Positions 1,298 to 63,020 of a stretch of 64,000 nt of DNA are shown here, in pieces; positions within the stretch are counted from its first letter, which is position 1; each line of letters begins with the position of its first letter. The notes under the pieces are model-generated. The model was given only the letters and a program-made list of their open reading frames with translations. It was not told the DNA's origin and did not search any database. Source of the stretch: Isoperla grammatica (taxonomy: Eukaryota > Arthropoda > Insecta > Plecoptera > Perlodidae); contig OX246745.1 of the NCBI GenBank assembly GCA_945910005.1, positions 6,840,227 through 6,904,226 of the forward strand, in the 5' to 3' direction. The position numbers were made by a program, and so were the translations under genes.

Positions 1298-3595
1298 CCT
1301 CAGACACTAGATTACGTATATTGGCAAAGCACTGCTAAAAATTAATTTTCTCAGAACTAAAGCTATAAAAAACATCATTCGCCAATTAGTACGATAAGAT
1401 TCCTTGCAGCAACTCGTCTGGACCGTAAAAATCGGTCATTGAAGTAGGAGGCCCGTCTGCACCACACACCTTGCACCATAGGGAGTTACAGCACTGCCTA
1501 AGGCCCGGCAATAGCTAGAGGCAGGTATTTGGTTGTGCTGAAAACGAAAATTAAACCATACAACATTTTTTATATATATCTCAACAGTGCTATACACAAG
1601 AAATAAAAAATCTGAGTCTAAAGCGCAATATGGTTTAGTAGTAATGGTTGGAACATTCAATAAAAACGCTGTGGTTCACATCCGTCACAGTGGATTGAAA
1701 TAGTCACAAGAAATGAATCAGTTCCATTTCTTATTTCAACTTCTCATGATGCACCTTAAGACGAACCAATCAGAACGCAGAAGAGCCATGAGTGAGAACT
1801 TGAGAAGGTCTACTACGGAAATCAAAACAGAAACAGAAGTACCAGATATTTTGCTTTTGTTGTAGTCAATGATAGTAGGTACACAATTAGGCGCTGCTTT
1901 GAGTACTGAAATAAGCAACTAGTCATCGGTTGTGAACCAGTTGCAAATTTTATTTCACTGTTTCTTATTGCAACTCTTATTTCAATAATTGCGAATCGGT
2001 CTTAAACGACAAGTCTAATCGAGATGGTCCGAGACAAAGTCACGCTTGTTCTGGTAAACAACCTGTTCTACTTACTATCTACTCAGATAATATACAGATG
2101 CGCACGTGACTAGTACTGTACCATTCTATATCACTACCTTAGGGTGTTTACACGGCTTTCTGAACTACTAATACAGCGAAATCAATCCAAAAGACTGTAT
2201 GTTACGTCTTCGAACTAGGCCTAGGCCTAGACCTAGTTGGCATACCTAGTTGATTCCGAAGCCAGTCAAATACGTCAAGTCCTCCTTTGCTGAGGTAAGA
2301 GCGAAGATTAGGCACAATATGTCTAAATTTAGGGCTGTATCAGGTCATACCTGAGAAGATTTGAAAATAGTTGTTTGTACGTAACGTGGCTCAGACTATA
2401 GTATATACCGACCATTTTGGGGAACGTTTTTGTGATATTATTTAGCTCCTAACTAGAGTGTTTGTACATTCGACTGTTAAGTGGACACTCCATATAAACT
2501 ATTCATGAAAGCTCCTTCATGTTTAAAATTAATAAAGCAAACTTGGAAGGCACAAAGCAGCGAGGTTTATTACTGTTATTTAATATTAAATCACATAGAA
2601 CAAATGACCAATAAGCATAGTGATGGTGACCACAAGAAAAGGGCAAAGTCTTGTAACTCATAGTGTGTCACTATTACACTTTAGTTACACTATAGTCATT
2701 CATAAACAGCTATCTACTTTAGCCAAACAATATAATTATTAATTAGCTTCTTGGCATGCCGACACAAAAAAACTCTAACTGAGAATGTACAATATATGTG
2801 ATACTTGCATTAGCATGAATATGGTAGCATGGTACCTATACTCCATCTCAATTTTACACTCGAATTAGTGAGGGCTACAGTTTTCGTAGCCATTATAATA
2901 TGGTTTCTATTAAGTGAATATATTATTGTTTTCGACTGACTTTGTATATTGATTCATTATTTAATTGTACTCATTTTGTAATCAGTCAGTGTCATAAACT
3001 GAATAGGATATAAATAAATACATACACTGAAAGCTAAATGGCAATAATGAATGTGTGCTGGAAGATACTGATCAGTCTTATTCTGATTGAGATTAAGCGA
3101 CTGTCTGGAGACGTTGGAATACAAGACGAGATTACAATCATTAAGTATTATGAAAGATGAGACATTAGTTCGAAAAAATATAAAATATATCAACAAAACA
3201 TAAAAGGGAGTCTAAAAACTTAAATATTTCTTTAATTACATCCCTGGCGAGCGAATGTTGTATTACGGAACGGAAGAGTCATCGAGACGCGAAGAGCGAA
3301 GGGCAGAACAGCATCATTGATCTAGGAGACGGCGGGCGTGGAGGCGGGCGGGGGGGCTGGGGGCGGCTCCAGTACCGATACCACCCCCAGCACCCACGCA
3401 CCTTACACACTATCTCCATGGTTACCCTAGGACCAGCCCTGTGACCAACGCCCACCTACGACACCATCTTGGGGTTTAGGGGTGGATCTTCCTCCTCTGC
3501 TCTCATTAACAATGTTTAACATTTTCATAAAGACTAGTAAAAAAAAAAAATCTGCAAAGACCGCATAAAAATAATGTATGGCTTGTACGCTTATT
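1298..3595. other. Spacer, no gene seen
   Basis: AT-rich DNA without a recognisable gene. Frames up to about 80 codons occur on both strands but have no recognisable domain and no coding-like composition. A short GC-rich island lies at about 3310-3400 (gcgggcggg-type sequence). Confidence 0.5.
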
Positions 3596-4923
3596 GAGAG
3601 AAATAGTTCAAAAGATGGAGAAATATTCACGTTAATATGTTAGTTGTTGATAATTGTGTACTATCCTTGTCTGTATTTGCGAGAAATAGTTCAAAAGATG
3701 GGGAAATATTCACGTTAACGTGTTGGTTGATGATAATTGTGTACTATTCTTCTCTGTATTTGCGAGAAATAGTTCAAAAGATGGGGAAATATTCACGTTA
3801 ACGTGTTGGTTGATGATAATTGTGTACTATTCTTCTCTGTCTTTGCGAGAAATAGTTCGAAAGGGGGGAAATATTCACGTTAACGTGTTGGTTGATGATA
3901 ATTGTGTACTATTCTTCTCTGTATTTGCGAGAAATAGTTCAAAAGATGGTGAAATATTCACGTAAATAATGTTGGTTGATGATAATTGTGTACTATTCTT
4001 CTCCGTCTTTGCGAGAAATAGTTCGAAAGGGGGGAAATATTCACGTAAATAATGTTGGTTGATGATAATTGTGTACTATTCTTCTCTGTCTTTGCGAGAA
4101 ATAGTTCGAAAGGGGGGAAATATTTACGTAAATAATGTTGGTTGATGATAATTGTGTACTATTCTTCTCCGTCTTTGCGAGAAATAGTTCGAAAGGGGGG
4201 AAATATTCACGTAAATAATGTTGGTTGATGATAATTGTGTACTATTCTTCTCTGTCTTTGCGAGAAATAGTTCGAAAGGGGGGAAATATTTACGTTATCG
4301 TGTTGGTTGATGATAATTGTGTACCATTCTTCTCTGTATTTGCGAGAAATAGTTCAAAAGATGGGGAAATATTCACGTAAACGTGTTGGTTGATGATAAT
4401 TGTGTACCATTCTTCTCTGTATTTGCGAGAAATAGTTCAAAAGATGGGGAAATATTCACGTAAATATGTTGGTTGATGATAATTGTGTACTATTCTTCTC
4501 TGTATTTGCGAGAAATAGTTCAAAAGATGGGGAAATATTCACGTAAATATGTTGGTTGATGATAATTGTGTACCATTCTTCTCTGTATTTGCGAGAAATA
4601 GTTCAAAAGATGGGGAAATATTCACGTAAACGTGTTGGTTGATGATAATTGTGTACCATTCTTCTCTGTATTTGCGAGAAGTAGTTCAAAAGGTGGGGAA
4701 ATATTCACGTTAACGTGTTGGTTGATGATAATTGTGTACTATTCTTCTCTGTCTTAGCGAGAAATAGTTCAAAAAATGGGAAATATTCACGTAGACATGT
4801 TGGTTGATGATTGTGTACTATTCTTCCCTGTCTTTGCGAGAAATACTTGAAAAGATGGAGAAATATTCACGTAAACATGTTGGTTTAGGATAATTGTGTT
4901 TCTGTCTTTGCGAGGAATAATTC
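3596..4923. repeat. 83-bp satellite, about 16 copies
   Basis: Head-to-tail repeats of about 83 bp containing GATGATAATTGTGTAC, TTTGCGAGAAATAGTTC and GGAAATATTCACGT. Two monomer types are interspersed: one with TTCAAAAGATGGGG and one shortened by about 2 bp with TTCGAAAGGGGGG. The last units (after about 4790) are degenerate, the usual decay at an array edge. Open frames across the array are repeat artefacts. Confidence 0.95.
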
Positions 4924-17832: not shown

Positions 17833-18510
17833 CCCCGCGCCTATGGTTCAAATCAAATGTCTTATAGGCTTGTTGGCTCCAGCTGACGTGACGGCAGTAT
17901 TGGTTGCTGCAGTAACACATCCTATGACTACCTCAATCGCACTTCAAACGTTCTAATTCTAGCCTCACGTGCTGGCTTAGATGATTGAAATAAATGACGG
18001 CGTCTCTAAAATACATCTAATCGTTACCTCCCCAACAGCTAGTAAACCCTGCTCCTTGCTAATCTAAGATAAAAATAAAAAAAAAAAAATCAGTACGAAG
18101 TTATACGATCAGCTACGTACACGTGTCCAATACGGATCTGTTCTTTTATTCAAATCTATTTCCGGCACATACGCCAATAAAGCTCATTCATGCTCTTACC
18201 TTTAAAACTATGTAGGACCCTGTCAATGCTCCGACTCTGACGTTGTCCACGTGACTCACGCGATATGGCCCACGTGTCGGTGGTCGCGGAGACGCGGAGA
18301 TACACGAGCATAGCCGAGCGGACACGAACCGTCACACACAAAACTACCCCGTTACGCAAGCAAGATGACAGTACTGAAGCTTGGTACACTTTGATTCAGG
18401 TACGACAGAAGTAATATCCCACATGGGTTTTGTCATAAAACGGATCCCTTAAAAACTGCTGTCTTAGATTGATTGATATTTGGGTTGTACGTAAATATTT
18501 TGCAACTTTG
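17833..18510. other. Spacer with three CACGTG sites
   Basis: No gene recognised. CACGTG occurs at 18120, 18248 and 18271, the last two 23 bp apart around GCGATATGGCC. They may be related to the site cluster at 15.4-15.9 kb. Confidence 0.45.
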
Positions 18511-25466: not shown

Positions 25467-26332
25467 ATGTCACAGGTAGAGACACTATGCGCCCACTTGA
25501 CCTACATTACGTCTCTACCCTTGTGTACCCGGGTAGTAGAGACACTATGCGCCCACTTGACCTACATTACGTCTCTACCCTTGTGTACCCGGGTAGTAGA
25601 GACACCATGCGCCCACTTGACCTACATTACGTCTCTACCCTTGTGTACCCGGGTAGTAGAGACACCATGCGTGCACTTGACCTACATTACGCCTCTACCC
25701 TTGTGTACCCGGGTAGTAGAGACACCATGCGCCCACTGGACCTACATTACGTCTCTACCCTTGTGTACCCGGGTAGTAGAGACACCATGCGCCCACTTGA
25801 CCTACATTACGTCTCTACCCTTGTGTACCCGGGTAGTAGAGACACCATGCGCCCACTTGACCTACATTACGTCTCTACCCTTGTGTACCCGGGTAGTAGA
25901 GACACCATGCGCCCACTTGACCTACATTACGTCTCTACCCTTGTGTACCCGGGTAGTAGAGACACCATGCGCCCACTTGACCTACATTACGTCTCTACCC
26001 TTGTGTACCCGGGTAGTAGAGACACCATGCGCCCACTGGACCTACATTACGTCTCTACCCTTGTCTACCCGGGTAGTAGAGAACCATGCGTGCACTTGAC
26101 CTACATTACGTCTCTACCCTTGTGTACCCGGGTAGAAGAGACACCATGCGCCCACTTGACCTGCATTACGCCTCTACCCTTGTGTACCCGGGTAGAAGAG
26201 ACACCATGCGCCAACTTGACCTACATTACGTCTCTACCCTTGTGTACCCGGGTAGTAGAGACACCATGCGCCCGCTTGACCTACATTACGTCTCTACCCT
26301 TGTGTCCCCGGGTTGAAGAGACACCATACGCC
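25467..26332. repeat. 60-bp satellite, left block, about 14 copies
   Basis: Exact 60-bp period. Each unit carries GAGACACCATGCGCCCACTT, GACCTACATTACGTCTCTAC and CCTTGTGTACCCGGGTAGTA. The first ten units differ by only one or two bases; variation rises towards 26332. Because 60 is divisible by 3, two forward frames stay open and mimic a 20-residue repeat protein of up to 292 residues. The array continues at 35024 after an 8.7-kb insertion. Confidence 0.97.
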
Positions 26333-26450
26333 CAGAGGCGGACTGGGGGGGGGGGGGGGGGGTAAGGGCCCCGTACGGAAAAGTATGTTAGGGGCCCCGG
26401 AAGTTGCCGAAGTTGAAAGGGGTCTGGGGCGAAGCGAAGCAAATTTTCGT

Positions 26451-29400
26451 CCGAGTGACAGCAAGTCTCTTGCGTTGTGTTGAGGCTTACAGTCGATCCA
26501 TTGGTACTTTGCTTATAATGATATTTGGCTGAAATGGACAACATACACTATGGTAAGTGTGCTTTTCAATTATATAAAAATAAAAACGGGGGTAACCGGC
26601 CTACTTTTTGAGTTATTTCCGAGTAACCGCAAGTCGCTTGCATTGTGTTGAGGCTTAAAGTAAATCCATTGATACTTCACTTATAATGAATGATATTTGG
26701 CTGAAATTTACAACATACACTATCGTCAGCACTTTATGAGTTATTTCCGAGTGATAGCAAGTCTCTTGCGTTGTGTTGAGGCTTAAATTCGATCCATTGA
26801 AACTCACATAATGATTTTTGGTTGAAATTGAGAACATACACTAAAATAAGTGCGCTTTTCAATTATATAAAAATAAAAACGGAGGTAACTGTTCTACTTT
26901 GTGAGTTATTTCCGAGTGACATTAAGTCGCTTGCGTTGTGTTGAGGCTTAAGGTCGATCCATTGAAACTTTACTTATAATGATATTTGACTGAAATTGAC
27001 AACATACACTATAGTAAGTGTGCTTTGTAAATTATCTAAAATAAAAACGGAGGTAACCGGTCTACTTTTTGAGTTATTTCCGAGTGACAGCAAGTCTCTT
27101 GCGTTGTGTTGAGACTTAAAGTCGATCCATTGATACTTCACTTATAATGATTTTGGCTGAAATTGACAACATACACTATAGTAAGTGTGCTTTGTAAATT
27201 ATCTAAAATAAAAACGGAGGTAACCGGTCTACTTTTTGAGTTCTTTCCGAGTGACAGCAAGTCTCTTGCGTTGTGTTGAGGCTTAAAGTCGATCCATTGA
27301 TACTTCACTTATAATGATATTTGACTGAAATTGACAACATACACTAAAGTAAGTGTGCTTTGTAAATCATCTAAAATAAAAACGGAGGTAACCGGTGTAC
27401 TTTTTGAGTTATTTCCGAGTGACAGCAAGTCTCTTGCGTTGTGTTGAGGCTTAAAGTCGATCCATTGATACTTCACTTATAATGATATTTGACTGAAATT
27501 GACAACATACACTATAGTTAGTGTACTCTATAATTATCTAAAATAAAAACGGAGGTAACCGGTCAACTTTTTGAGTTTTTACCGTGGGACAGCAAGTCTC
27601 TTGCGTTGTGTTGAGGCTTAAAGTCGATCCATTGATACTTCACTTATAATGATATTTGACTGAAATTGACAACATACACTATAGTAAGTGTACTCTTCAA
27701 TTATCTAAAATAAAAACGGAGGTAACCGGTCTACTTTTTGAGTTTTTACCATGGGACAGCAAGTCTCTTGCGTTGTGTTGAGGCTTAAAGTCGATCCATT
27801 GATACTTCACTTATAATGATATTTGACTGAAATTGACAACATACACCAAAGTAAGTGTGCTTTGTAAATTATCTAAAATAAAAACGGAGGTAACCGGTAT
27901 ACTTTTTGAGTTATTTGCGAGTGACAGCAAGTCTCTTGCGTTGTGTTGAGGCTTAAAGTCGATCCATTGATACTTCACTTATAATGATATTTGATTACAA
28001 TTGAAATCATACACTATAGTAAGTGTGCTTTTTAAATTATCTAAAATAAAAACGGAGGTAACCGGTCTACTTTTTGAGTTATTTCCGAGTGACAGCAAAT
28101 CTCTTGCGTTGTGTTGAGACTTAAAGTCGATCCATTGATACTTCACTTATAATGATATTTGACTGAAATTAACAACATACACTATAGTAAGTGTGCTTTG
28201 TAAATTATCTAAAATAAAAACGGAGGTAACCGGTCTACTTTTTGAGTTATTTCCGAGTGACAGCAAGTCTCTTGCGTTGTGTTGATGCTTAAAGTCGATC
28301 CATTGATACTTCACTTATAATGATATTAGACTGAAATTGACAACATACACTATAGTAAGTGTGCTTTGTAAATGATCTAAAATTAAAACGGAGGTAACTG
28401 GTATACTTTTTGAGTTATTTCCGAGTGACAGCAAGTCTCTTGCGTTGTGTTGAGGCTTAAAGTCGATCCATTGATACTTCACTTATAATGATATTTGACT
28501 GAAATTGACAACATACACTATAGTAAGTGTACTCTTCAATTATCTAAAATAAAAACGGAGGTAACCGGTCTACTTTTTGAGTTTTTACCGTGTGACAGCA
28601 AGTCTCTTGCGTTGTGTTGAGGCTTAAAGTCGATCCATTGATACTTCACTTATAATGATATTTGACTGAAATTGACAACATACACTATAGTAAGTGTACT
28701 CTTCAATTATCTAAAATAAAAACGGAGGTAACCGGTCTACTTTTTGAGTTTTTACCGTGGGAAGGCAGGTCTCTTGCGTTGTGTTGAGGCTTAAAGTCAA
28801 TCCATTGATACTTCACTTATAATGATATTTGACTGAAATTGACAACATACACTATAGTAAGTGTGCTTTGATAATTATCTAAAATAAAAACGGAGGTAAC
28901 CGGTCTACTTTTTGAGTTATTTCCGAGTGACAGCAAGTCTCTTGCGTTGTGTTGAGGCTTAAAGTCGATCCATTGATACTTCACTTATAATGATATTTGA
29001 CTGAAATCGACAACATACACTATAGTAAGTGTGCTTTGTAAATTATCTAAAATAAAAACGGAGGTAACCGGTCTACTTTTTGAGTTATTTCCGAGTGATA
29101 GCAAGTCTCTTGCGTTGTGTTGAGGCTTAAAGTCGATCCATTGATACTTCACTTATAATGATATTTGACTGAAATTGACAACATACACTATAGAAAGTGT
29201 GCTTTTTAAATTATCTAAAATAAAAACAGAGGTAACCGGTATACTTTTTGAGTTATTTCCGAGTGACAGCAAGTCTCTTGCGTTGTGTTGAGGCTTAAAG
29301 TCGATCCATTGATTCTTCACTTATAATGATATTTTACTGAAATTGACAACATACACGATAGTAAGTGTCTTTGTAAATTATCTAAAATAAAAACGGAGGT

Positions 29401-32400
29401 AACCGGTCTACTTTTTGAGTTATTTCCGAGTGACAGCAAGTCTCTTGCGTTGTGTTGAGGCTTAAAGTCGATCCATTGATACTTCACTTATAATGATATT
29501 TGACTGAAATTGACAACATACACTATAGTAAGTGTGCTTTGTAAATTATCTTAAATAAAAACGGAGGTAACCGGTATACTTTTTGAGTTATTTCCGGGGA
29601 CAGCAAGTCTCTTGCGTTGTGTTGAGGCTTAGGGTCGATCCATTGTTACTTCACTTATAATGATATTTGACTGAAATTGACAACATACACTATAGTAAGT
29701 GTGCTTTGTATATTATCTAAAATAAAAACGGAGGTAACCGGTCTACTTTTTGAGTTATTTCCGAGTGACAGCAAGTCTCTTGCGTTGTGTTGAGACTTAA
29801 AGTCGATCCATTGATACTTCACTTATAATGATATTTGACTGAATTTGACAACATACACTATAGTAAGTGTGCTTTGTTAATTATCTAAAATAAAAACGGA
29901 GGTAACCGGTGTACTTTTTGAGTTATTTCCGAGTGACAGCAAGTCTCTTGCGTTGTGTTGAGGCTTAAAGTCAATCCATTAATACTTCACTTATTATGAT
30001 ATTTGACTGAAATTGACAACATACACTAAAGTAAGTGTGCTTTGTAAATTATCTAAAATAAAAACGGAGGTAACCGGTCTACTTTTTGAGTTATTTCCGA
30101 GTGACAGCAAGTCTCTTGCGTTGTGTTGAGGCTTGAAGTAGATCCATTGATACTTCACTTATAATGATATTTGACTGAAATTGACAACATACACTATAGT
30201 AAGTGTGCTTTGTAAATTATTTAAAATAAAAACGGAGGTAACCGGTCTACTTTTTGAGTTATTTCCGAGTGACAGCAAGTCTCTTGCGTTGTGTTGAGGC
30301 TTAAAGTCGATCCATTGATACTTCACTTATAATGATATTTGACTGAAATTGACAACATACACTATAGTAAGTGTACTCTTCAATTATCTTAAATAAAAAC
30401 GGAGGTAACTGGTCTACTTTTTGAGTTTTTACCGTGGGACAGCAAGTCTCTTGCGTTGTGTTGAGGCTTAAATTCGATCCATTGATACTTCACTTATAAT
30501 GATATTTGACTGAAATTGACAACAAACACTATAGTAAGTGTACTCTTCAATTATCTAAAATAAAAACGGAGGTAATTGGTCTACTATTTGAGTTATTTCC
30601 GAGTGACAGCAAGTCTCTTGCGTTGTGTTGAGGCTTAAAGTCGATCCATTGATACTTCACTTATAATAATATTTGACTGAAATTGACAACATACACTAAA
30701 GTAAGTGTGCTTTGTAAATTATCTAAAATAAAAACGGAGGTAACCGGTCTACTTTTTGAGTTATTTCCGAGTGACAGCAAGTCTCTTGCGTTGTGTTGAG
30801 GCTTAAAGTCGATCCATTGATACTTTACTTATAATGATATTTGACTGAAATTGACAACATACACTATAGTAAGTGTACTCTTCAATAATCTAAAATAAAA
30901 ACGGAGGTAACCGGTCTTCTTTTTGAGTTTTTACCTTGGGACAGCAAGTCTCTTGCGTTGTGTTAAGGCTTAAAGTTGATCCATTGATACTTCACTTATA
31001 ATGATATTTGACTGAAATTGACAACATACACTATAGTAAGTGTGCTTTGATAATTATCTTAAATAAAAACGGAGGTAACTGGTATACTTTTTGAGTTATT
31101 TCCGAGTGACAGCAAGTCTCTTGCGTTGTGTTGAGGCTTAAAGTCGATCCATTGATACTTCACTTATAATGATATTTGACTGAAATTGACAACATACACT
31201 ATAGTAAGTGTGCTTTGTAAATTATCTAAAATAAAAACGGAGGTAACCGGTCTACTTTTTGAGTTATTTCCGAGTGACAGCAAGTCTCTTGCGTTGTGTT
31301 GAGGCTTAAAGTCGATCCAATGATACTTTACTTTTAATGATATTTGACTGAAAATGACAACATAGACTAAAGTAAGTGTACTCTTCAATTATCTAAAACA
31401 AAAACGGACGGAACTGGTCTACTTTTTGAGTTTTTACCGTGGGACAGCAAGTCTCTTGCGTTGTGTTGAGACTTAAAGTTGATCCATTGATACTTCACTT
31501 ATAATGATATTTGACTGAAATTTACAACATACACTAAAGTAAGTATGCTTTGTAAATTATCTAAAATAAAAACGGAGGTAACCGGTCTACTTTTTGAGTT
31601 ATTTCCGAGTGACAGCAAGTCTCTTGCGTTGTGTTGGGGCTTAAAGTCGATCCACTGATACTTCACTTATTATGATATTTGATTGAAATTGACAACATAC
31701 ACTATAGTAAGTGTGCTTTTTAAATTATCTAAAATAAAAACGGAGGTAACCGGTATACTTTTTGAGTTATTTCCGAGTGACAGCAAGTCTCTTGCGTTTT
31801 GTTGAGGCTTAAAGTCGATCCATTGTTACTTCACTTATAATGATATTTGACTGAAATTGACAACATACACTATAGTAAGTGTGCTTTGTTAATTATCTAA
31901 AATAAAAACGGAGGTAACCGGTCTACTTTTTGAGTTATTTCCGAGTGACAGCAAGTCTCTTGCGTTGTGTTGAGACTTAAAGTCGATCCATTGATACTTC
32001 ACTTATAATGATATTTGACTGAAATTGACAACATACACTATAGTTAGTGTGCTTTGTTAATTATCTAAAATAAAAACGGAGGTAACCGGTCTACTTTTTG
32101 AGTTATTTCCGAGTGACAGCAAGTCTCTTGCGTTGTGTTGAGGCTTAAAGTCGATCCATTGATACTTCACTTATAATGATATTTGACTGAAATTGACAAC
32201 ATACACTAAAGTAAGTGTGCTTTGTTAATTATCTAAAATAAAAACGGAGGTAACCGGTCTACTTTTTGAGTTATTTCCGAGTGACAGCAAGTCTCTTGCG
32301 TTGTGTTGAGGCTTAAAGTCGATCCATTGATACTTCACTTATAATGATATTTGACTGAAATTGACAACATACACTATAGTAAGTGTGCTTTGTAAATTAT

Positions 32401-34322
32401 CTAAAATAAAAACGGAGGTAACCGGTCTATTTTTTGAGTTATTTCCGAGTGACAGCAAGTCTCTTGCGTTGTGTTGAGGCTTAAAGTCGATCCATTGATA
32501 CTTCACTTATAATGATATTTGACTGAAATTGACAACATACACTATAGTAAGTGTGCTTTGTAAATTATCTAAAATAAAAACGGAGGTAACCGGTCTACTT
32601 TTTGAGTTATTTCCGAGTGACAGCAAGTCTCTTGCGTTGTGTTGAGGCTTAAAGTCGATCCATTGATACTTCACTTATAATGATATTTGACTGAAATTGA
32701 CAACATACACTATAGTAAGTGTGCTTTTTTAAATTATCTAAAATAAAAACGGAGGTAACCGGTCTACTTTTTGAGTTATTTCCGAGTGACAGCAAGTCTC
32801 TTGCGTTGTGTTGAGGCTTAAAGTCGACCCATTGATACTTCACTTATAATGATATTTGACTGAAATTGACAACATACACTATAGTAAGTGTACTCTTCAA
32901 TTATCTAAAATAAAAACGGAGGTAACCGGTCTACTTTTTGAGTTTTTACCGTGGGACATCAAGTCTCCTGCGTTGTGTTGAGGCTTAAAGTCGATCCATT
33001 GATACTTCACTTATAATGATATTTGACTGAAATTGACAACATACACTATAGTAAGTGTACTCTTCAATTATCTAAATTAAAAACGGAGGTAACCGGTCTA
33101 CTTTTTGAGTTTTTACCGTGGGACAGCAAGTCTCTTGCGTTGTGTTGAGGCTTAAAGTCGATCCATTGATACTTCACTTATAATGATATTTGACTGAAAT
33201 TGACAACATACACTATAGTAAGTGTGCTTTGTAAATTATCTTAAATAAAAACGGAGTTAACCGGTCTACTTTTTGAGTTATTTCCGAGTGACAGCAAGTC
33301 TCTTGCGTTGTGTTGAGGCTTAAAGTCGATCCATTGATACTTCACTTATGATGATTTGACTGAAATTGACAACATACACTAAAATAAGTGTGCTTTGTAA
33401 ATTTTCTAAAAATAAAAACGTAGGTAACCGTTCTACTTTGTGAGTTATTTCCGTGTGACAGCAAGTCTCTTGCGTTGTGTTGAGACTTAAAGTCGATCCA
33501 TTGATACTTCACTTATAATGATATTTGACTGAAATTGACAACATACACTAAAGTAAGTGTGCTCTGTAAATTATCTAAAATAAAAACGGAGGTAACCGGT
33601 CTACTTTTTGAGTTATTTCCGAGTGACAGCAAGTCTTTTGCGTTGTGTTGAGACTTAAAGTCGATCCATTGATACTTCACTTATAATGATATTTGACTGA
33701 AATTGACAACATACACTATAGTAAGTGTGCTTTGTAAATTATCTAAAATAAAAACGGAGGTAACCGGTCTACTTTTTGAGTTATTTCCGAGTGACAGCAA
33801 GTCTCTTGCGTTGTGTTGAGGCTTAAAGTCGATCCATTGATACTTCACTTATGATGATTTGACTGAAATTGACAACATACACTAAAATAAGTGTGCTTTG
33901 TAAATTTTCCAAAAATAAAAACGTAGGTAACCGTTCTACTTTGTGAGTTATTTCCGTGTGACAGCAAGTCTCTTGCGTTGTGTTGAGGCTTAAAGTCGAT
34001 CCATTGATACTTCACTTATGATGATTTGACTGAAATTGACAACATACACTAAAATAAGTGTGCTTTGTAAATTTTCTAAAAATAAAAACGTAGGTAACCG
34101 TTCTACTTTGTGAGTTATTTCCGTGTGACAGCAAGTCTCTTGCGTTGTGTTGAGACTTAAAGTCGATCCATTGATACTTCTTTTATAATGATATTTGACT
34201 GAAATTGACAACATACACTATAGTAAGTGTGTTTTGTAAATTATCTTAAATAAAAACGGAGGTAACCGGTCTACTTTTTGAGTTATTACCGTGGGACAGC
34301 AAGTCTCTTGCGTTGTGTTGAG
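26451..34322. repeat. 168-bp satellite, about 47 copies
   Basis: Head-to-tail units of 168 bp contain GACAGCAAGTCTCTTGCGTT, GTGTTGAGGCTTAAAGTCGA, TCCATTGATACTTCACTTAT and AAAACGGAGGTAACCGGTCT. Type A (CTTTGTAAATTATC with GAGTTATTTCCGAGTGAC) is the majority. Type B (GTACTCTTCAATTATC with GAGTTTTTACCGTGGGAC) occurs about ten times, often in adjacent pairs. Edge units form a third type (AAAATAAGTG, GTAACCGTTCTACTTTGTGAG). The 168-bp length is in the range of one nucleosome repeat, a common satellite size. Short reverse frames are artefacts. Confidence 0.97.
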
Positions 34323-34868
34323 CAGGCGCGGACTGGCTAGGGATGCCGGGATGTGATCGCATCCCGGGCCCCTGGGCAAATCCGGGCCCCCGGGCTGCCA
34401 CGACAAAGTTCCTATGATGTAAAAACTTCTTTGTAAATTGCTAAAAAAATCTTAACCCCACTCTATAAGTATTATTTTGAAATACCGCGCGCCGGGTGTC
34501 CGCGACTTGGTGACTAAGGGCCCTCTACGCCCAGGAAACCTTATCAAATCCGCTCGCACGCTAGTATTTTGCGAGTGACAATATTTAGTTCTTGTTAGTT
34601 ACACTAATGGCCGTAGGCCTACCATGAATATCGTTTTCTTAAAATTTGAATAACACGCCCGGTAGTGCTACTGGAAGGATGACCTCTGTTAATCGCTCCC
34701 TAAAATCGCATTTTAGGCCATAAAATTCAATGCAACCCTTACAAAAATTTTACGCCTTCGGCGTATGTGCCTCCGGCGACTGGGCTTCGCCCCAGACGCA
34801 CCACGCCACCTCATGCGGGCCCCCCTGAAACCCAGCATCCCGGGTCTTTTCATCCCAGTCCGCCCCTG
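34323..34868. mobile_element. Second hAT-like element at the satellite's right edge
   Basis: Ends CAGGCGCGGACTGG and CCAGTCCGCCCCTG are inverse at 13 of 14 positions and resemble the ends of the enclosing element, so it belongs to the same or a sister family. It is 546 bp with no transposase. The left flank is mid-monomer satellite (GTGTTGAG) and the right flank (ATTACATA) is not, so there is no target duplication. This implies a later deletion or rearrangement at the right junction. Confidence 0.8.
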
Positions 34869-35023
34869 ATTACATATTATGCTCTTCTAACTATTTAGTT
34901 TCATAATCTATACAGCATAAGATATTTATTTTCAGGGGGTTGGGTGGTGGCGCCCAAGGGGGCCCCCACTCGGGGGAGCCCCGTATGGGTTTCCGTAGTT
35001 CCGTACCTGCCAGTCTGCCCCTG

Positions 35024-35650
35024 CATACGCCCACTTGACCTACATTACTCCTTTACCCTTGTGTACCCGGGTAGTAGAGACACCATGCGCCCACTTGACC
35101 TACATTACGTCTCTCTCTACCCTTGTTTACCCGGGTAGTAGAGTCACCATGCGCCCACTTGACCTACATTACGTGTCTACCCTAGTGTACCCGGGTAGTA
35201 CGTCTCTCTCTACCTTTGTGTACCCGGGTAGTAGAGTCACCATGCGCCCACTTGATCTACATTACTACTCTACCCTTGTGTACCCGGGTAGTAGAGACAC
35301 CATGCGCCCACTTGACCTACATTACGTCTCTACCCTTGTGTACCCGGGTAGTAGAGACACCATGTGCCCACTTGACCTACATTACTACTCTACCCTTGTG
35401 TACCCGGGTAGTAGAGACACCATGCGCCCACTTGACCTACATTACTACTCTACCCTTGTGTACCCGGGTAGTAGAGACACCATGCGCCCACTTGACCTAC
35501 ATTACGTCTCTACCCTTGTGTACCCGGGTAGTAGAGACACCATGTGCCCACTTGACCTACATTACGTCTCTACCCTTGTTTACCCGGGTAGTAGAGTCAC
35601 CATGCGCCCACTTGACCTACATTACTCCTCTACCCTTGTGTACCCGGGTC
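35024..35650. repeat. 60-bp satellite, right block, about 10 copies
   Basis: Continuation of the 25467-26332 array after the insertion, starting with the duplicated CATACGCC. Units alternate between ATTACGTCTCTACC and ATTACTACTCTACC. Near the left edge some units are shortened or carry an extra TCTC. A 209-codon forward frame here is a repeat artefact. Confidence 0.96.
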
Positions 35651-40869: not shown

Positions 40870-41651
<782 letters not shown>

Positions 41652-44150
41652 GCGGACGTAGTGTTACGGATACTGGTTCATGACATGGGCTGGCGCACGG
41701 AGCGGCGCCATCTTGTAACCCCTGAGCTGTAGACTCTTATACACACAGCGGACGTAGTGTTACGGATACTAGTTCATGACAAGGGCTGGCGCACGGAGCG
41801 GCGCCATCTTGTGTCCCGTGAGCTGTAGACTCTTATACACACAGCGGACGTAGTGTTACGGATACTGGTTCATGACAAGAGCTGGCGCACGGAGCGGCGC
41901 CATCTTGTGTCCCGTGAGCTGTAGACTCTTACACACAGCGGACGTAGTGCTACGGATACTGGTTCACGACAAGGGCTGGCGCACGGAGCGGCGCCATCTT
42001 GTGTCCCGTGAGCTGTAGACTCTTATACACACAGCGGACGTAGTGCTACGGATACTGGTTCACGACAAGGGCTGGCGCACGGAGCGGCGCCATCTTGTGT
42101 CCCGTGAGCTGTAGACTCTTATACACACAGCGGACGTAGTGTTACGGATACTGGTTCATGACAAGAGCTGGCGCACGGAGCGGCGCCATCTTGTGTCCCG
42201 TGAGCTGTAGACTCTTATACACACAGCGGACGTAGTGTTACGGATACTGGTTCATGACAAGGGCTGGCGCACGGAGCGGCGCCATCTTGTGTCCCGTGAG
42301 CTGTAGACTCTTATACACACAGCGGACGTAGTGTTACGGATACTGGTTCATGACAAGAGCTGGCGCACGGAGCGGCGCCATCTTGTGTCCCGTGAGCTGT
42401 AGACTCTTATACACACAGCGGACGTAGTGTTACGGATACTGGTTCACGACAAGAGCTGGCGCACGGAGCGGCGCCATCTTGTGTCCCGTGAGCTGTAGAC
42501 TCTTATACACACAGCGGACGTAGTGTTACGGATACTGGTTCACGACAAGAGCTGGCGCACGGAGCGGCGCCATCTTGTGTCCCGTGAGCTGTAGACTCTT
42601 ACACACAGCGGACGTAGTGTTACGGATACTGGTTCACGACAAGGGCTGGCGCGCGGAGCGGCGCCATCTTGTGTCCCGTGAGCTGTAGACTCTTATACAC
42701 ACAGCGGACGTAGTGTCATAGGCGTAACTACGGGGGGGCGAGGGGGGTCGCCGCCCCCCCTAGTTCGGTCAAGAAGGGGCATGGGGGGGCAAAATGCAAT
42801 TTATTATTGGTTTCACCCGCTGTTGCGACCGGGAGAAATGTCACTATTTGCTATGCAATTATCCCTGTTTAATAGATATCATAATATATTTGTAAGGAAC
42901 TCGTGTCTAAATAATATCAACCTATCTTACAGAAATAATTCTCTATGAACAGGCTCTCAGAAGCAGCCTTTATCAGTCTGCTGTTTTTTCATACTTCTTA
43001 CACATGGTCACCCCGACCAATAATCTATTCTGGTTTAAAAAGTATTCGCCCCCCCAAAAAACAAGTGCTAGTTACGCCACTGCGTAGTGTTACGGATACT
43101 GGTTCACGACAAGGGCTGGCGCACGGAGCGGCGCCATCTTGTGTCCCGTGAGCTGTAGACTCTTACACACAGCGGACGTAGTGTTACGGATACTGGTTCA
43201 CGACAAGGGCTGGCGCACGGAGCGGCGCCATCTTGTGTCCCGTGAGCTGTAGACTCTTATACACACAGCGGACGTAGTGTTACGGATACTGGTTCACGAC
43301 AAGGGCTGGCGCACGGAGCGGCGCCATCTTGTGTCCCGTGAGCTGTAGACTCTTATACACACAGCGGACGTAGTGTTACGGATACTGGTTCATGACAAGG
43401 GCTGGCGCACGGAGCGGCGCCATCTTGTGTCCCGTGAGCTGTAGACTCTTATACACACAGCGGACGTAGTGTTACGGATACTAGTTCATGACAAGGGCTG
43501 GCGCACGGAGCGGCGCCATCTTGTGTCCCGTGAGCTGTAGACTCTTATACACACAGCGGACGTAGTGTTACGGATACTAGTTCATGACAAGGGCTGGCGC
43601 ACGGAGCGGCGCCATGTTGTGTCCCGTGAGCTGTAGACTCTTATACACACAGCGGACGTAGTGTTACAGATACTGGTCTCTTATACACACAGCGGACGTA
43701 GTGTTACGGATACTGGTTCATGACAAGGGCTGGCGCACGGAGCGGCGCCATCTTGTGTCCCGTGAGCTGTAGACTCTTATACACACAGCGGACGTAGTGT
43801 TACGAATACTAGTTCATGACAAGGGCTGGCGCACGGAGCGGCGCCATCTTGTGTCCCGTGAGCTGTAGACTCTTATACACACAGCGGACGTAGTGTTACG
43901 GATACTGGTTCACGACAAGGGCTGGCGCACGGAGCGGCGCCATCTTGTGTCCCGTGAGCTGTAGACTCTTATACACACAGCGGACGTAGTGTTACGGATA
44001 CTAGTTCATGACAAGGGCTGGCGCACGGAGCGGCGCCATCTTGTGTCCCGTGAGCTGTAGACTCTTATACACACAGCGGACGTAGTGTTACGGATACTTG
44101 TTCACGACAATGGTTGGCGCACGGAGCGGCGCCATCTTGTGTCCCGCCAC
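41652..44150. repeat. 96-bp satellite, about 22 copies
   Basis: Units of 96 bp (94 when TTATACACACA is shortened to TTACACACA) contain GCGGACGTAGTGTTACGGAT, GGCTGGCGCACGGAGCGGCG and CTGTAGACTCTTATACACAC. Variants GGTTCATG/GGTTCACG/AGTTCATG are interspersed. One unit (about 43655-43690) is internally deleted, and the array is interrupted by a hAT MITE at 42717-43082. Edge units are diverged. It is more GC-rich than its surroundings. Confidence 0.97.
42717..43082. mobile_element. hAT-type MITE inside the 96-bp satellite
   Basis: Ends CATAGGCGTAACTA and TAGTTACGCCACTG are inverse apart from two bases. Both sides carry CGTAGTGT (42709-42716 and 43083-43090), an 8-bp target duplication belonging to the satellite monomer, so excision restores a normal unit. 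The 366-bp body has G/C runs just inside each end like the other hAT MITEs here, but a different interior. There is no transposase. Confidence 0.95.
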
Positions 44151-50990: not shown

Positions 50991-51659
50991 CGCTCTAAAG
51001 TGGAGACACCTCGGACAACGAACCAGTCGATCCACCGCGTCGAGCTTATATTTATTACCTGGTTTGTAAACCCCTCGTTAGGGGGGTAGTTGGGCCGACT
51101 CGTTCGCGCTACATTCCATTCACTGATTTCCTAGAATTTCATAATTGGCTACATGAACAACTGTAAAAGATAAATTCCAAATATAAATTAATGTTTTATT
51201 TGAATTAACGTTTCGGAAACTTATTTCTTAATATAGATCAGAACACCACGAGCTTGAAACTTTTTTATTTTTTCTTGTAGCGTTATTATTAGATGAATGC
51301 GAATCAAACGATTTGCATACTGCATACATGAATTACATAATATGTTTCTTCATAATCCTACTACAAAGACGATTAAAAAATGACAATATGCATAAATGTA
51401 TTTAGAAAACGATTGTGATAATTGAAAATGACGTAAAACCAGAAGCAAAAATAATAAAACTAGCACGGGGTATTTAACAGAATACAACAGTCCGCAATCT
51501 GATTTAACGATCTTCTAGCTTTGAATATTGACATGAATGCGATGCATTCCCAAGGGTTGTACAAAATATGGTCATCGCTCAGAACCGGTTTTCGCCAGAA
51601 ATTCTGGTTCGTTGTCCGAGGTGTACGTACTGTAGATCAATTCTGAAAATCGTCTATTG
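50991..51659. other. Upstream region of the Yippee-like gene
   Basis: AT-rich sequence. A 21-base exact inverted repeat (51006-51026 and 51604-51624, containing CCTCGGACAACGAACC and its complement) brackets about 580 bp. No TATA box or upstream exon can be assigned confidently. Confidence 0.45.
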
Positions 51660-51674
51660 TTCTCTGTCCCCCAG
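51659..51674 (+). promoter_or_regulatory. Possible 3' splice site just before the Yippee-like start
   Basis: GTTCTCTGTCCCCCAG is a pyrimidine-rich tract ending in CAG placed immediately before the ATG at 51675. This is the form of an animal intron acceptor and suggests a separate 5' non-coding exon upstream. The sequence is seen; its use is inferred. Confidence 0.5.
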
Positions 51675-52031
51675 ATGGCTTCTCCTAGACCTAAACAGTT
51701 CCACACATACTTGGCGTGCAACGAGCCCATCTACAGCTGCCAGCGGTGCCAGACTCACATCACCGCTCAGCACAACATAGTGACTAAGATGGTGATGGTG
51801 ATGCAAGGGAAGGCGTACCTCGTCGACGGGGTCGTCAACGTGAATCTCTTGGAGCCCCAGACCCGTTTCCTCCTATCAGGGATCTTCCGCATTGCCGACC
51901 TCGCCTGCAAGGGATGTAGGACCAAGCTGGGTTGGACTTACCTAACTACGTCCAACCCGAGCCATCTATGGAGGGTTGGGAAGCATCTCTTGCTCAAAGA
52001 TCAGATAACGAAAGATAACAACTGGGATTGA
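51675..52031 (+). CDS. Yippee-like zinc-binding protein
   Basis: An intact 118-residue frame spans almost the whole Yippee domain. It has a CxxC at residues 22-25 and another at 78-81, separated by exactly 52 residues, the spacing of the YPEL family, whose cysteine pairs bind zinc. Other family marks are YSCxxCxxH (20-28), GKAYLVDGVVNV (45-56), a LLSG..RIADL block (66-76), LGWTY (85-89) and a DNNW-type end (114-117). Typical YPEL proteins are about 119-121 residues, so this is full length. Members are small conserved eukaryotic proteins linked to nuclear and spindle-related locations; their biochemical role is poorly defined. The sequence departs from the usual strongly conserved YPEL1-5 core at many positions (e.g. 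LLEPQTRF where most have a GPAEER-like segment), so it is a divergent paralogue. An earlier in-frame ATG at 51657 exists, but the acceptor-like CAG directly before 51675 and family length favour 51675. The coding part lacks introns, so a retrocopy is possible. Confidence 0.92.
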   Translation: MASPRPKQFHTYLACNEPIYSCQRCQTHITAQHNIVTKMVMVMQGKAYLVDGVVNVNLLEPQTRFLLSGIFRIADLACKGCRTKLGWTYLTTSNPSHLWRVGKHLLLKDQITKDNNWD

Positions 52032-55203: not shown

Positions 55204-55559
55204 TCCAAAGACCAGAAAGCTTCCCAGAAGAAGCTATTTTGAAACCTGATATTATTTCTCGGAAAACTGAACAAAAGCCTGTCTCGTGTTTATGCCTTGG
55301 GAGTGTAGCTATCACGATCCACCCCCTCCTCCGCCCCCGCCGCCCCCACGCTAAATGCCGCCCCCGCATGCACTGAATCCTTCAGTCAAGTTGAGCGGTC
55401 CTACAACTCGTGTAGGCAGTGGGGACAGGAGACCCCCCCAACTTATACATTACCTTGATCAACCACGCACCCGCTATGCAAAACTGTACCAAAACCCCTA
55501 ATGGTATTGTTGCTCATTCGTTTGTCTTCAACAACATACGGGTTGATGGCCCGAGCCCC
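55204..55559. other. Spacer, no gene seen
   Basis: Includes a C-rich stretch (about 55320-55370: CCCCCTCCTCCGCCCCCGCC). No gene. Confidence 0.45.
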
Positions 55560-58500
55560 GATTTGTGTAGCAACTGCGGTACCTAATGCACGATATGATT
55601 GCCGCTTTGTGTAGAAACTGCAATACCTAATGTAAGGGATGGTGGTCGTTTTGTGTAGAAACTGCAATACCTAATGTACAGGATGGTGACCGCTTTGTGT
55701 AGGAACTGCAATACCTAATGTACGAGATGATGGCCGCTTTGTGTAGGACTAGGAACTGTAATACCTAAGGTACAGGATAGTAACTGCTTTGTGTATGAAC
55801 TGCTATACCTAATGCACGATATGATGGCCGCTTTGTGTAGGAACTGCAATACCTAATGTACGAGATGATGGCCGCTTTGTGTAGGACTAGGAACTGTAAT
55901 ACCTAATGTACAGGATGGTAACTGCTTTGTGTATGAACTGCTATACCTAATGCACGATATGATGGCCGCTTTGTGTAGGAACTGCAATACCTAATGTACA
56001 GGATGGTGACCGCTTTGTGTATGAACTGCTATACCTAATGCACGATATGATGGCCGCTTTGTGTAGGAACTGCAATACCTAATGTACAGGATGGTGACCG
56101 CTTTGTGTATGAACTGCTATACCTAATGCACGATATGATGGCCGCTTTGTGTATGAACTGCAATACCTAATGTACAGGATGGTGACCGCTTTGTGTATGA
56201 ACTGCTATACCTAATGCACGATATGATGGCCGCTTTGTGTAGGAACTGCTATACCTAATGTACAGGATGGTGACCGCTTTGTGTATGAACTGCTATACCT
56301 AATGTACAGGATGGTGACCGCTTTGTGTAGGAACTGCTATACCTAATGTACAGGATGGTGACCGCTTTGTGTATGAACTGCTATACCTAATGTACAGGAT
56401 GGTGACCGCTTTGTGTATGAACTGCTATATACCTAATGCACGATATGATGGCCGCTTTGTGTATGAACTGCAATACCTAATGTACAGGATGGTGACCGCT
56501 TTGTGTATGAACTGCTATACCTAATGCACGATATGATGGCCGCTTTGTGTAGGAACTGCTATACCTAATGTACGATATGATGGCCACTTTGTGTAGGACT
56601 AGGAACTGTAATACCTAATGTACAGGATGGTAACTGCTTTGTGTATGAACTGCAATACCTAATGTACGATATGATGGCCGCTTTGTGTAGGAACTGCAAT
56701 ACCTAATGCACGATATGGTGACCGCTTTGTGTATGAACTGCTATACCTAATGCACGATATGATGGCCGCTTTGTGTAGGAACTGCAATACCTAATGTACA
56801 GGATGGTGACCGCTTTGTGTATGAACTGCTATACCTAATGTACGATATGATGGCCGCTTTGTGTAGGAACTGCAATACCTAATGCACGATATGATGGCCG
56901 CTTTGTGTAGGAACTGCAATACCTAATGTACAGGATGGTGACCGCTTTGTGTATGAACTGCTATACCTAATGCACGATATGATGGCCGCTTTGTGTAGGA
57001 ACTGCAATACCTAATGTACAGGATGGTGACCGCTTTGTGTATGAACTGCTATACCTAATGTACGATATGATGGCCGCTTTGTGTAGGAACTGCAATACCT
57101 AATGCACGATATGATGGCCGCTTTGTGTAGGAACTGCAATACCTAATGTACAGGATGGTGACCGCTTTGTGTATGAACTGCTATACCTAATGTACGAGAT
57201 GATGGCCGCTTTGTGTAGGAACTGCAATACCTAATGTACAGGATGGTGACCGCTTTGTGTATGAACTGCTATACCTAATGCACGATATGATGGCCGCTTT
57301 GTGTAGGAACTGCAATACCTAATGTACGATATGATGGCCGCTTTGTGTAGGAACTGCAATACCTAATGCACGATATGATGGCCGCTTTGTGTAGGAACTG
57401 TAATACCTAATGTACAGGATGGTAACTGCTTTGTGTATGAACTGCAATACCTAATGTACGATATGATGGCCGCTTTGTGTATGAACTGCAATACCTAATG
57501 TACAGGATGGTGACCGCTTTGTGTATGAACTGCAATACCTAATGTACAGGATGGTGACCGCTTTGTGTATGAACTGCTATACCTAATGTACGAGATGATG
57601 GCCGCTTTGTGTATGAACTGCTATACCTAATGTACAGGATGGTGACCGCTTTGTGTATGAACTGCTATACTTAATGCACGATATGATGGCCGCTTTGTGT
57701 AGGAACTGCAATACCTAATGTACGATATGATGGCCGCTTTGTGTAGGACCTGCAATACCTAATGCACGATATGATGGCCGCTTTGTGTAGGAACTGTAAT
57801 ACCTAATGTACAGGATGGTAACTGCTTTGTGTATGAACTGCAATACCTAATGTACGATATGATGGCCGCTTTGTGTATGAACTGCAATACCTAATGTACA
57901 GGATGGTGACCGCTTTGTGTATGAACTGCAATACCTAATGTACAGGATGGTGACCGCTTTGTGTATGAACTACAATACCTAATGTACAGGATGGTGACCG
58001 CTTTGTGTATGAACTGCAATACCTAATGTACGATATGATGGCCGCTTTGTGTATGAACTGCAATACCTAATGTACAGGATGGTGACCACTTTGTGTATGA
58101 ACTGCAATACCTAATGTACAGGATGGTGACCGCTTTGTGTATGAACTGCAATACCTAATGTACAAGATGGTGACCGCTTTGTGTATGAACTGCAATACCT
58201 AATGTACAGGATGGTGACCGCTTTGTGTATGAACTGCAATACCTAATGTACAGGATGGTGACCGCTTTGTGTATGAACTGCAATACCTAATGTACAGGAT
58301 GGTGACCGCTTTGTGTATGAACTGCAATACCTAATGTACAGGATGGTGACCGCTTTGTGTATGAACTGCAATACCTAATGTACAGGATGGTGACCGCTTT
58401 GTGTATGAACTGCAATACCTAATGTACAGGATGGTGACCGCTTTGTGTATGAACTGCAATACCTAATGTACGATATGATGGCCGCTTTGTGTATGAACTG

Positions 58501-60160
58501 CAATACCTAATGTACAGGATGGTGACCGCTTTGTGTATGAACTGCAATACCTAATGTACAGGATGGTGACCGCTTTGTGTATGAACTGCAATACCTAATG
58601 TACAGGATGGTGACCGCTTTGTGTATGAACTGCAATACCTAATGTACAGGATGGTGACCGCTTTGTGTATGAACTGCTATACCTAATGTACGAGATGATG
58701 GCCGCTTTGTGTATGAACTGCTATACCTAATGTACAGGATGGTGACCGCTTTGTGTATGAACTGCTATACCTAATGCACGATATGATGGCCGCTTTGTGT
58801 AGGAACTGCAATACCTAATGCACGATATGATGGCCGCTTTGTGTAGGAACTGTAATACCTAATGTACAGGATGGTAACTGCTTTGTGTATGAACTGCAAT
58901 ACCTAATGTACGATATGATGGCCGCTTTGTGTATGAACTGCAATACCTAATGTACAGGATGGTGACCGCTTTGTGTATGAACTGCAATACCTAATGTACA
59001 GGATGGTGACCGCTTTGTGTATGAACTGCTATACCTAATGTACGAGATGATGGCCGCTTTGTGTATGAACTGCTATACCTAATGTACAGGATGGTGACCG
59101 CTTTGTGTATGAACTGCTATACCTAATGTACAGGATGGTGACCGCTTTGTGTATGAACTGCAATACCTAATGTACAGTATGGTGACCGCTTTGTGTATGA
59201 ACTGCTATACCTAATGTACAGGATGGTGACCGCTTTGTGTATGAACTGCAATACCTAATGCACGAGATGATGGTCGCTTTGTAAATGAACTGCAATACCT
59301 AATGTACAGGATGGTGACCGCTTTGTGTATGAACTGCTATACCTTATGTACAGGATGGTGACCGCTTTGTGTATGAACTGCTATACCTAATGTACGGGAT
59401 GGTGACCGCTTTGTGTATGAACTTCAATACCTAATGTACGGGATGATAGCTGCTTTGTGTAGGAACTGCTATACCTAATGCACGAGATGATGGTCGCTTT
59501 GTGTATGAACTGCAATACCTAATGTACAGGATGGTGACCGCTTTGTGTATGAACTGCTATACCTAATGCACGAGATGATGGTCGCTTTGTGTATGAACTG
59601 CAATACCTAATGTACGGGATGGTGACCGCTTTGTGTATGAACTGCTATACCTAATGTACAGGATGGTGACCGCTTTGTGTAGGAACTGCTATACCTAATG
59701 CACGATATGATGGCCGTTTTGTGTATGAACTGCTATACCTAATGCACGAGATGATGGTCGCTTTGTGTATGAACTGCAATACCTAATGTACGATATGGTG
59801 GCAGCTTTGTGTATGAACTGCTATACCTAATGTACAGGATGGTGACCGCTTTGTGTATGAACTGCTATACCTAATGCACGATATGATGGCCGTTTTGTGT
59901 ATGAACTGCTATACCTAATGTACGGGATGATGGCCGCTTTGTGTATGAACTGCTATACCTAATGTACGATATGATGGCCGCTTTGTGTATGAACTGCTAT
60001 ACCTAATGTACAGGATGGTGACCGCTTTGTGTATGAACTGCAATACCTAATGTACAGGATGGTGACCGCTTTGTGTATGAACTGCTATACCTAATGTACA
60101 GGATGGTGACCGCTTTGTGTATGAACTGCTATACCTAATGTACGGGAGTATGACCGCCAA
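55560..60160. repeat. 44-bp satellite, about 104 copies, with 88-bp dimers
   Basis: The 44-bp unit carries GAACTGC(A/T)ATACCTAATG, then either CACGATATGATGGCCGC (type A) or TACAGGATGGTGACCGC (type B), then TTTGTGTA(G/T). In 55790-57300 A and B units largely alternate, giving 88-bp dimers. In 57880-58680 long runs of B occur with few A units. A rare 51-bp variant with TAGGACTAGGAACTG appears several times (about 55746, 55890, 56597), so blocks were copied together. Edge units are degenerate. There is no long coding frame. Confidence 0.97.
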
Positions 60161-62618: not shown

Positions 62619-63020
62619 ACTCCACCCTTCCAATACTCCCGCCACGTAGAGCCTTCTCACTACTCACTAGCGCTTTCTCTCAGGGGTAGACAAGGCTTTC
62701 ACTCCACCCTTCCAATACTCCCGCCACGTACAGCCTTCTCACTACTCACTAGCGCTTTCTCTCAGGGGTAGACAAGGCTTTCACTCCACCCTTCCAATAC
62801 TCCCGCCACGTAGAGCCTTCTCACTACTCACTAGCGCTTTCTCTCAGGGGTAGACAAGGCGTTCACTCCACCCTTCCAATACTCCCGCCACGTAGAGCCT
62901 TCTCACTACTCACTAGCGCTTTCTCTCAGGGGTAGACAAGGCTTTCACTCCACCCTTTCAATACTCCCGCCACGTACAGCCTTCTCACTACTCACTAGCG
63001 CTTTCTCTCAGGGGTAGACA
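62619..63020. repeat. 82-bp tandem repeat, about 5 copies
   Basis: Units carry CTCCACCCTTCCAATACTCC, CGCCACGTA(G/C)AGCCTTCTC and ACTACTCACTAGCGCTTTCT, then CTCAGGGGTAGACA. Copies are nearly identical (GTAGAG/GTACAG variants), indicating a recent expansion. Confidence 0.95.

Follow-up and report, generated by a model that had tools for sequence, protein, structure and literature searches.

How does a satellite come to lie inside a transposon that itself lies inside another satellite? The question is raised by a 64,000-nucleotide stretch of the genome of the plecopteran Isoperla grammatica (contig OX246745.1; hereafter, the window), in which a 60-bp tandem array is interrupted by an 8,691-bp insert (26333-35023) that has hAT-like ends and consists mostly of a 168-bp satellite. 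Our analysis indicates that the satellite is very probably not native to the outer element, family A; it abuts a second element within the insert, a miniature inverted-repeat transposable element (MITE) of family B. Elsewhere in the genome, at a locus denoted L030, two copies of B bracket six units of the same satellite in a composite, or "macrotransposon", that moved the satellite. We consider it somewhat more probable than not that the window array has a related history, whereby a B-borne satellite landed in a copy of A, the left end of the cargo was then lost and the array then expanded.

The insertion scar and the outer element

The insert separates the left part of the 60-bp array (25476-26332, + strand; Tandem Repeats Finder (TRF) row 25476-26334, period 60, 14.3 copies) from a less regular right part (35024-35649, + strand; TRF rows 35024-35649, periods 60, 64, 93 and 153). 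Its ends, CAGAGGCGGACTGG and CCAGTCTGCCCCTG, match each other in inverse orientation at 12 of 14 positions, and flank comparison identifies a perfect 8-bp target-site duplication, CATACGCC, on the left (26325-26332) and on the right (35024-35031; 8/8). This octamer does not occur in the remainder of the 60-bp array, which contains CATGCGCC 17 times and CATGTGCC twice; the one further CATACGCC in the whole window, at 18168, is outside that array. Joining the flanks without the insert yields one 60-bp monomer carrying the CATACGCC variant (...GACACCATACGCCCACTTGACC...). The preliminary description of this locus had recognized a hAT-like insertion with inverse ends, identical flanks sharing a variant rare in the array, and a single monomer restored by its removal, and all of this is borne out.

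The left end of the insert (26333-26447, + strand; CAGAGGCGGACTGG...) belongs to family A, with homology solid to 26435 and loose beyond, and includes a poly-G run (26345-26362) that is variable among copies. The right end (...CCAGTCTGCCCCTG; 34869-35023, + strand) is assigned by homology to other A copies. In this and all other DNA searches, the best 40 candidates were scored; the A left end was matched, whole or from base 21-24 onward, at 39 other places (best 40 of 631 candidates). Both ends and a target-site duplication were present in 18 of 21 fetched A copies, 17 with 8/8 matching bases and one with 7/8, the other three (L011, L024 and L028) lacking a delimited end pair. The delimited copies range from 1.07 to 7.5 kb, 15 of the 18 being about 1.07-1.36 kb long, and A copies have in common with the window the left 103 bp and the right ~155 bp. 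Given these shared ends, and given that the 168-bp unit found no match in any of the 21 A loci (E 1e-4), the outer element is best seen as an ordinary A copy with its interior replaced, to judge from the alignments, from about canonical base 92-110 to base 1157.

Both A and B (see below) have short inverted ends starting with CAG (CAGAGGCGGACTGG and CAGGCGCGGACTGG, respectively), a type of end typical of the hAT superfamily. Target duplications of hAT elements are expected to show preferred bases; the base composition at 17 A and 10 B sites (the latter partly 7/8) reveals no strong preference.

These data bear on the origin of the repeat. The preliminary description envisaged an internal repeat that expanded within the outer element; the expansion in place retains some support from a weak tree of the units (see below), whereas a repeat native to the interior of A is very unlikely. 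Admittedly, a single 8-bp duplication encloses the array together with true A ends on either side of it, and A has internal repeats of its own, about 160 bp long and 75-79% alike, which make arrays in A conceivable. Against this, apart from the lack of matches in the fetched A loci, alignment of the unit with the A interior is no better than with shuffled sequences (59 of 60 score as high), and the unit, a module of another repeat, is found at many loci with no A end in the sequence read. Comparisons of the unit with the A ends and with the interior of the 7.5-kb A copy L009 likewise gave scores within the shuffle range, and the ~160-bp repeats of A show no relationship to the 168-bp unit when aligned with it.

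Several individual A copies deserve mention. The ~160-bp repeats occur as three units in copy L006 (element bases 122-281, 771-928 and 931-1087), two of them in tandem, and are matched in other A copies. L006 and L013 (C17:39.58 and 39.37 Mb), separated by 210 kb, are 99.9% identical and carry one common 8-bp duplication; they are probably a single A insertion copied by a larger duplication. L009 (C7:60887000-60896000; duplication 7/8) was considered as a second satellite-bearing A and rejected: its array of 30 71-bp units is nested inside an insertion that has long direct repeats and, by eye, resembles a long terminal repeat (LTR) retrotransposon, and is of different origin. L011, in which the A left end has no right end within 8 kb, was considered as a transposase carrier, and no hAT frame was recognized in it; one of its frames looks, by eye, related to reverse transcriptases.

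Family B and a composite that moved the satellite

Within the insert, there is a second end pair that had gone unnoticed, CAGGCGCGGACTGG at 34323 and CCAGTCCGCCCCTG ending at 34868, delimiting a 546-bp B element (34323-34868, + strand). The first base of B directly follows the last base of the array (34322|34323), and the bases flanking B on the left, GTGTTGAG, are those that terminate a 168-bp unit. B is a dispersed family of ~545 bp, with matches over most of this length that are 76-88% identical (best 40 of 2018 candidates), and has the traits of a MITE, being short and multicopy, with common ends. Among the 29 B loci examined (L030 and L035 are the same locus), eight carry a solo B with an 8-bp duplication, 8/8 at L038, L050 and L052 and 7/8 at L034, L036, L048, L054 and L058; apart from the composite at L030 (see below), the rest have no end pair, or none with at least six matching bases. 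Within B loci L030-L058, the 168-bp unit is matched at junction loci only, save for 14-base stretches at L036 and L056. Direct alignment of the unit with B gives a score of 27 over 22 bp, narrowly above all 60 shuffles (best shuffle, 26), and we do not rely on it.

The junction between array and B is found at five loci including the window, at the identical position in the unit (best 40 of 1355 candidates); the others are L030 (C12:28.48 Mb), L031 (C16:17.19 Mb), L037 (C14:1.045 Mb) and L039 (C12:46.62 Mb). It reads GTGTTGAG, or differs from this at one base (GTGTTTAG, GTGTTAAG), and continues with CAGGCGCGG; the right flanks at the five loci are all different, each beginning straight after the last base of B.

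At L030, the complete arrangement is preserved as a 2,024-bp composite that comprises one B copy (B1), GTGTTGAG, six whole units ending in GTGTTGAG, and a second B copy (B2) in the same orientation. The occurrence of GTGTTGAG both to the right of B1 and to the left of B2 is expected if B inserted in one unit and was then duplicated together with the array. While the inner flanks are GTGTTGAG, the outer flanks are AGTTCAAG on both sides (8/8), so that two elements and the intervening DNA are enclosed in one new duplication, which marks a transposition using the outer ends of the pair. Thus, L030 is a macrotransposon that moved the satellite. The earlier proposal that transposons seed satellites is directly supported by this composite with its own duplication, albeit with B, not A, as the vehicle. 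A tree of 22 B rows picked by hand places the six array-adjacent copies within one starred clade of eight rows, with B1 and B2 as sisters; the array label changes twice compared with 5.3 changes in shuffles.

The presence of the array|B junction in L030, L031, L037 and L039 also argues against mis-assembly of unrelated repeats in the window, as do the exact element ends and the identical duplications with a variant absent elsewhere in the array. Tandem arrays are prone to such errors, and the copy number of 47 is that given by the assembly, but mis-assembly as the source of the whole structure is extremely unlikely.

In the insert, the right-hand B (34323-34868) is the only one present. To its right, family A sequence begins with ATTACATATTATG, the A copies having ATGACATATTATG or a close variant at this place. 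Because A sequence starts straight after B, the last base of B is the breakpoint. The first A bases there, ATTACATA (34869-34876; ATGACATA or close in A copies), are presumably the surviving copy of the duplication generated when the B-borne cargo landed in A. Hence the window copy, with one B and no left ATTACATA, is not by itself a macrotransposon.

Among the candidates scored, both outer junctions of the cargo are confined to this locus: the junction of the A left end with the array (168 bases queried; best 40 of 631 candidates) and that of B with the A right part (700 bases queried; best 40 of 2018 candidates) were each found in the window alone. Hence, there is no sign among the scored candidates that the 8.7-kb structure moved, and the earlier suggestion that a large satellite-bearing element moved whole is not supported. 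A jump of the entire A-ended structure, array included, into the 60-bp array would account for the perfect duplication at the insert ends, and reinsertion or excision has been reported in maize for hAT composites as large as 10.3 and 28 kb (PMC9910405). Nonetheless, given the window-only junctions, and with the size of the insert explained otherwise by short cargo as seen elsewhere plus expansion in place, such a jump seems unlikely. Nor did A ends turn up around other 168-bp arrays: within the best 40 of 631 candidates, an array lies beside the A left end in the window alone. The preliminary description had named other arrays lacking the A ends as evidence against its reading, and this is largely what we observe, 18 of 23 listed array-type clusters having no B junction either (see below) and the far ends of most other arrays being outside the sequence read.

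Source and growth of the array

The 168-bp array (26450-34322, + strand; TRF and tiling) consists of a 35-bp partial unit followed by 47 whole units and occupies 7,873 of the 8,691 bp of the insert (90.6%), in agreement with the about 90% and about 47 copies given earlier. TRF reports 26731-34322, period 168, 45.3 copies and 94% matches; in the tiling, which proceeds from the right edge, the 47 whole units are 128-169 bp long, with 44 at 167-168 bp.

The 168-bp unit itself stems from C, a longer dispersed repeat of which it is one module; at three fetched single-unit matches (L059, L060 and L061), this module is 86-88% identical to the unit. L059 and L060 are 87% identical over 476 aligned bases; L061 has 274 of those 476 bases in common with them, along with a second, partial copy of the unit. 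C forms short tandem groups with a period of about 475-520 bp by match coordinates (C13:46385631-46386907, C6:10980565-10981675 and C12:48268526-48269563; best 40 of 446 candidates). Related arrays have a period of about 151 bp (C12:39286932-39287855, C5:109229890-109230663, C6:7242864-7243626 and C12:39868923-39869668).

Units of the window array are more similar to each other (mean identity 94.1%, with identical pairs present) than to those of L030 (89.8%) or L031 (90.2%), the two loci to which the between-locus means are confined, L037 and L039 having been set aside for their left-hand non-satellite pieces. In a tree of 71 units from the window and other loci, the 44 units at 26946-34322 (+ strand) divide into a main clade, which includes 41 of the 47 window units and one outsider, L039_01 (support 85/78), and a second clade of three units exclusively from the window (100/98). 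The three divergent units at the left edge (WIN_47, WIN_46 and WIN_45; 26485-26945, + strand; support 82-89%, not starred) cluster elsewhere, two with L030 units and one with L031/L037 units. The window label changes five times on this tree compared with 13.7 times in shuffles (0 of 500 as low). The nearly window-only clade of 41 units, combined with the affinity of the left-edge units to other loci, suggests that the array grew in place from a few mixed units, with old types kept at the left edge.

Taken together, these observations suggest the following history. A non-autonomous hAT-like A copy inserted in the 60-bp array, as is evident from its ends and the 8-bp duplication. Elsewhere, B would have inserted into a 168-bp unit at GTGTTGAG, and duplication would have yielded B-array-B. 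Transposase acting on the outermost ends of the two B copies would have excised and transferred B-array-B as one piece, as in a macrotransposon, an event recorded by the duplication at L030 and supposed for the window, where the cargo would have entered the A copy such that the right end of B abuts A sequence exactly. A deletion with its ends inside A and inside a unit would have removed the left B, about 1 kb of the A interior and some of the array. Finally, the array would have expanded in place from a few units to 47, as the tree suggests, possibly by unequal exchange or slippage.

Several points weigh against this history. The left copy of ATTACATA is absent from the first 468 bases of the insert (26333-26800), the nearest candidate being ATTATATA at 26569, which is unit sequence within the array. 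Of the array|B loci, all but L030 are missing the left B (the window as well as L031, L037 and L039), and a search with the B1|array junction found no second B-array-B composite (best 40 of 1847 candidates). At L031, L037 and L039, the left-hand sequence contains no duplication matching the right flank with one mismatch allowed; at L031, only the reverse complement of the right flank was found, about 200 bp from the edge. Two rows of the B clade, L036 and L050, are without an array. The unit tree is weak, with six of 66 inner branches starred and the bootstrap unsettled, the 41-unit clade included at 85/78. A PF05699 profile search produced 150 matches (best 150 of 1705 candidates), several in open frames longer than 600 aa, none of these matches having so far been connected with A or B ends. 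Moreover, the order of A first, cargo second, then deletion and growth is the simplest rather than a proved one.

The missing left B would also fit a scenario in which the satellite was brought into A independently of B, through gene conversion or an insertion of C material, and B merely inserted at the array edge. So would the arrays without B: the satellite matches listed in the junction search form at least 35 clusters, 23 of the array type and 12 of the single-unit type, and 18 of the 23 array-type clusters have no B junction among the matches listed. Yet the same unit position at five loci and a single B clade are not readily produced by independent insertions, and the switch to A sequence in the window coincides with the right end of B. 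Accordingly, we regard this scenario as unlikely and favor arrival of the satellite with B.

Two of the array|B loci show further peculiarities. The left edge of the array at L031 (L062 568-601/L031 1-34) reads CTCAACATTTGTTGAG, which is nearly palindromic around the unit position that B occupies elsewhere; as noticed by eye and after the fact, it could be the hairpin footprint of an excised B. At L037, from about position 2100, a further tandem repeat with units of roughly 80 bp (GGTCTGTAAGTGATCACAAATACGCG...) is discernible by eye to the right of B. As for the rest of the window, it contains other large tandem arrays at 55558-60147 (44 bp x 104), 3594-4899 (83 bp x 16), 41649-44146 (96 bp) and 62619-63020 (82 bp x 5), and at 51636-52031 (+ strand) an open frame that we take to resemble a Yippee-like protein.

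Satellites and transposons in other genomes

How satellites spread to new chromosomal sites is an old question. In I. grammatica, the steps seemingly lie side by side in one genome, namely, the C module, free short arrays, a MITE-bracketed array with the mark of transposition and a landed array, which has 47 units in the window compared with six in the L030 vehicle, so that the seeding step becomes testable by comparing individuals. As a tentative generalization, for which the case is a little short of even, pairs of hAT MITEs might serve as satellite vehicles that insert in a unit, get duplicated and plant short arrays, which then expand several-fold. If so, the window array would represent the final, expanded stage and L030 the vehicle before expansion, a before-and-after pair in the same genome.

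In the transposon cases that we found in the literature, the repeat mostly belongs to the transposon's own sequence. Besides the systems compared below, oyster Helentrons came up in the open-access literature. In that literature, which excludes most subscription papers, we found, to the extent it could be viewed, no account of a satellite that travelled between two MITE copies and left a duplication. Tetris of Drosophila virilis is a non-autonomous DNA transposon with 8-10 bp duplications, the internal ~220-bp tandem repeats of which (TIR-220) grew into kb-size satellite arrays, the long arrays being more homogeneous (PMC4079207). The likeness to the present case is in a non-autonomous element with short duplications and a tandem repeat grown to kb size; in Tetris, though, the repeat lies within the long inverted repeats of the element, whereas here it is foreign C cargo beside a short MITE, inside another element. 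The hAT MITEs gadMor-hAT-1784 and -8043 of Atlantic cod, as described in the excerpts available, have tandem units of 167-169 bp and mean insertions of 1,334-5,838 bp (PMC12368964). They resemble the window insert in unit length, which does not imply kinship, and in kb-size insertions, but the tandem units are their own inverted repeats, and the parts available present no MITE-satellite-MITE with its own duplication.

Xenopus miDNA4 and Xstir, seen through partial secondary accounts, are MITEs that hold or yield tandem repeats, and for miDNA4 the capture of a pre-existing tandem repeat has been proposed (via PMC12628747 and PMC9659126). According to those accounts, miDNA4 is a Tc1/mariner MITE with the array in one element, and the repeats of Xstir originate in the MITE, unlike the foreign repeat bracketed by two MITE copies here. 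The nearest precedent of L030 is provided by maize Ac macrotransposons, in which a pair of closely spaced hAT elements transports the intervening DNA and leaves 8-bp duplications (PMC9910405). Common to both are paired hATs, moved intervening DNA and 8-bp duplications; the difference is in the cargo, described for maize with gene enhancers and consisting here of satellite units between two direct MITE copies.

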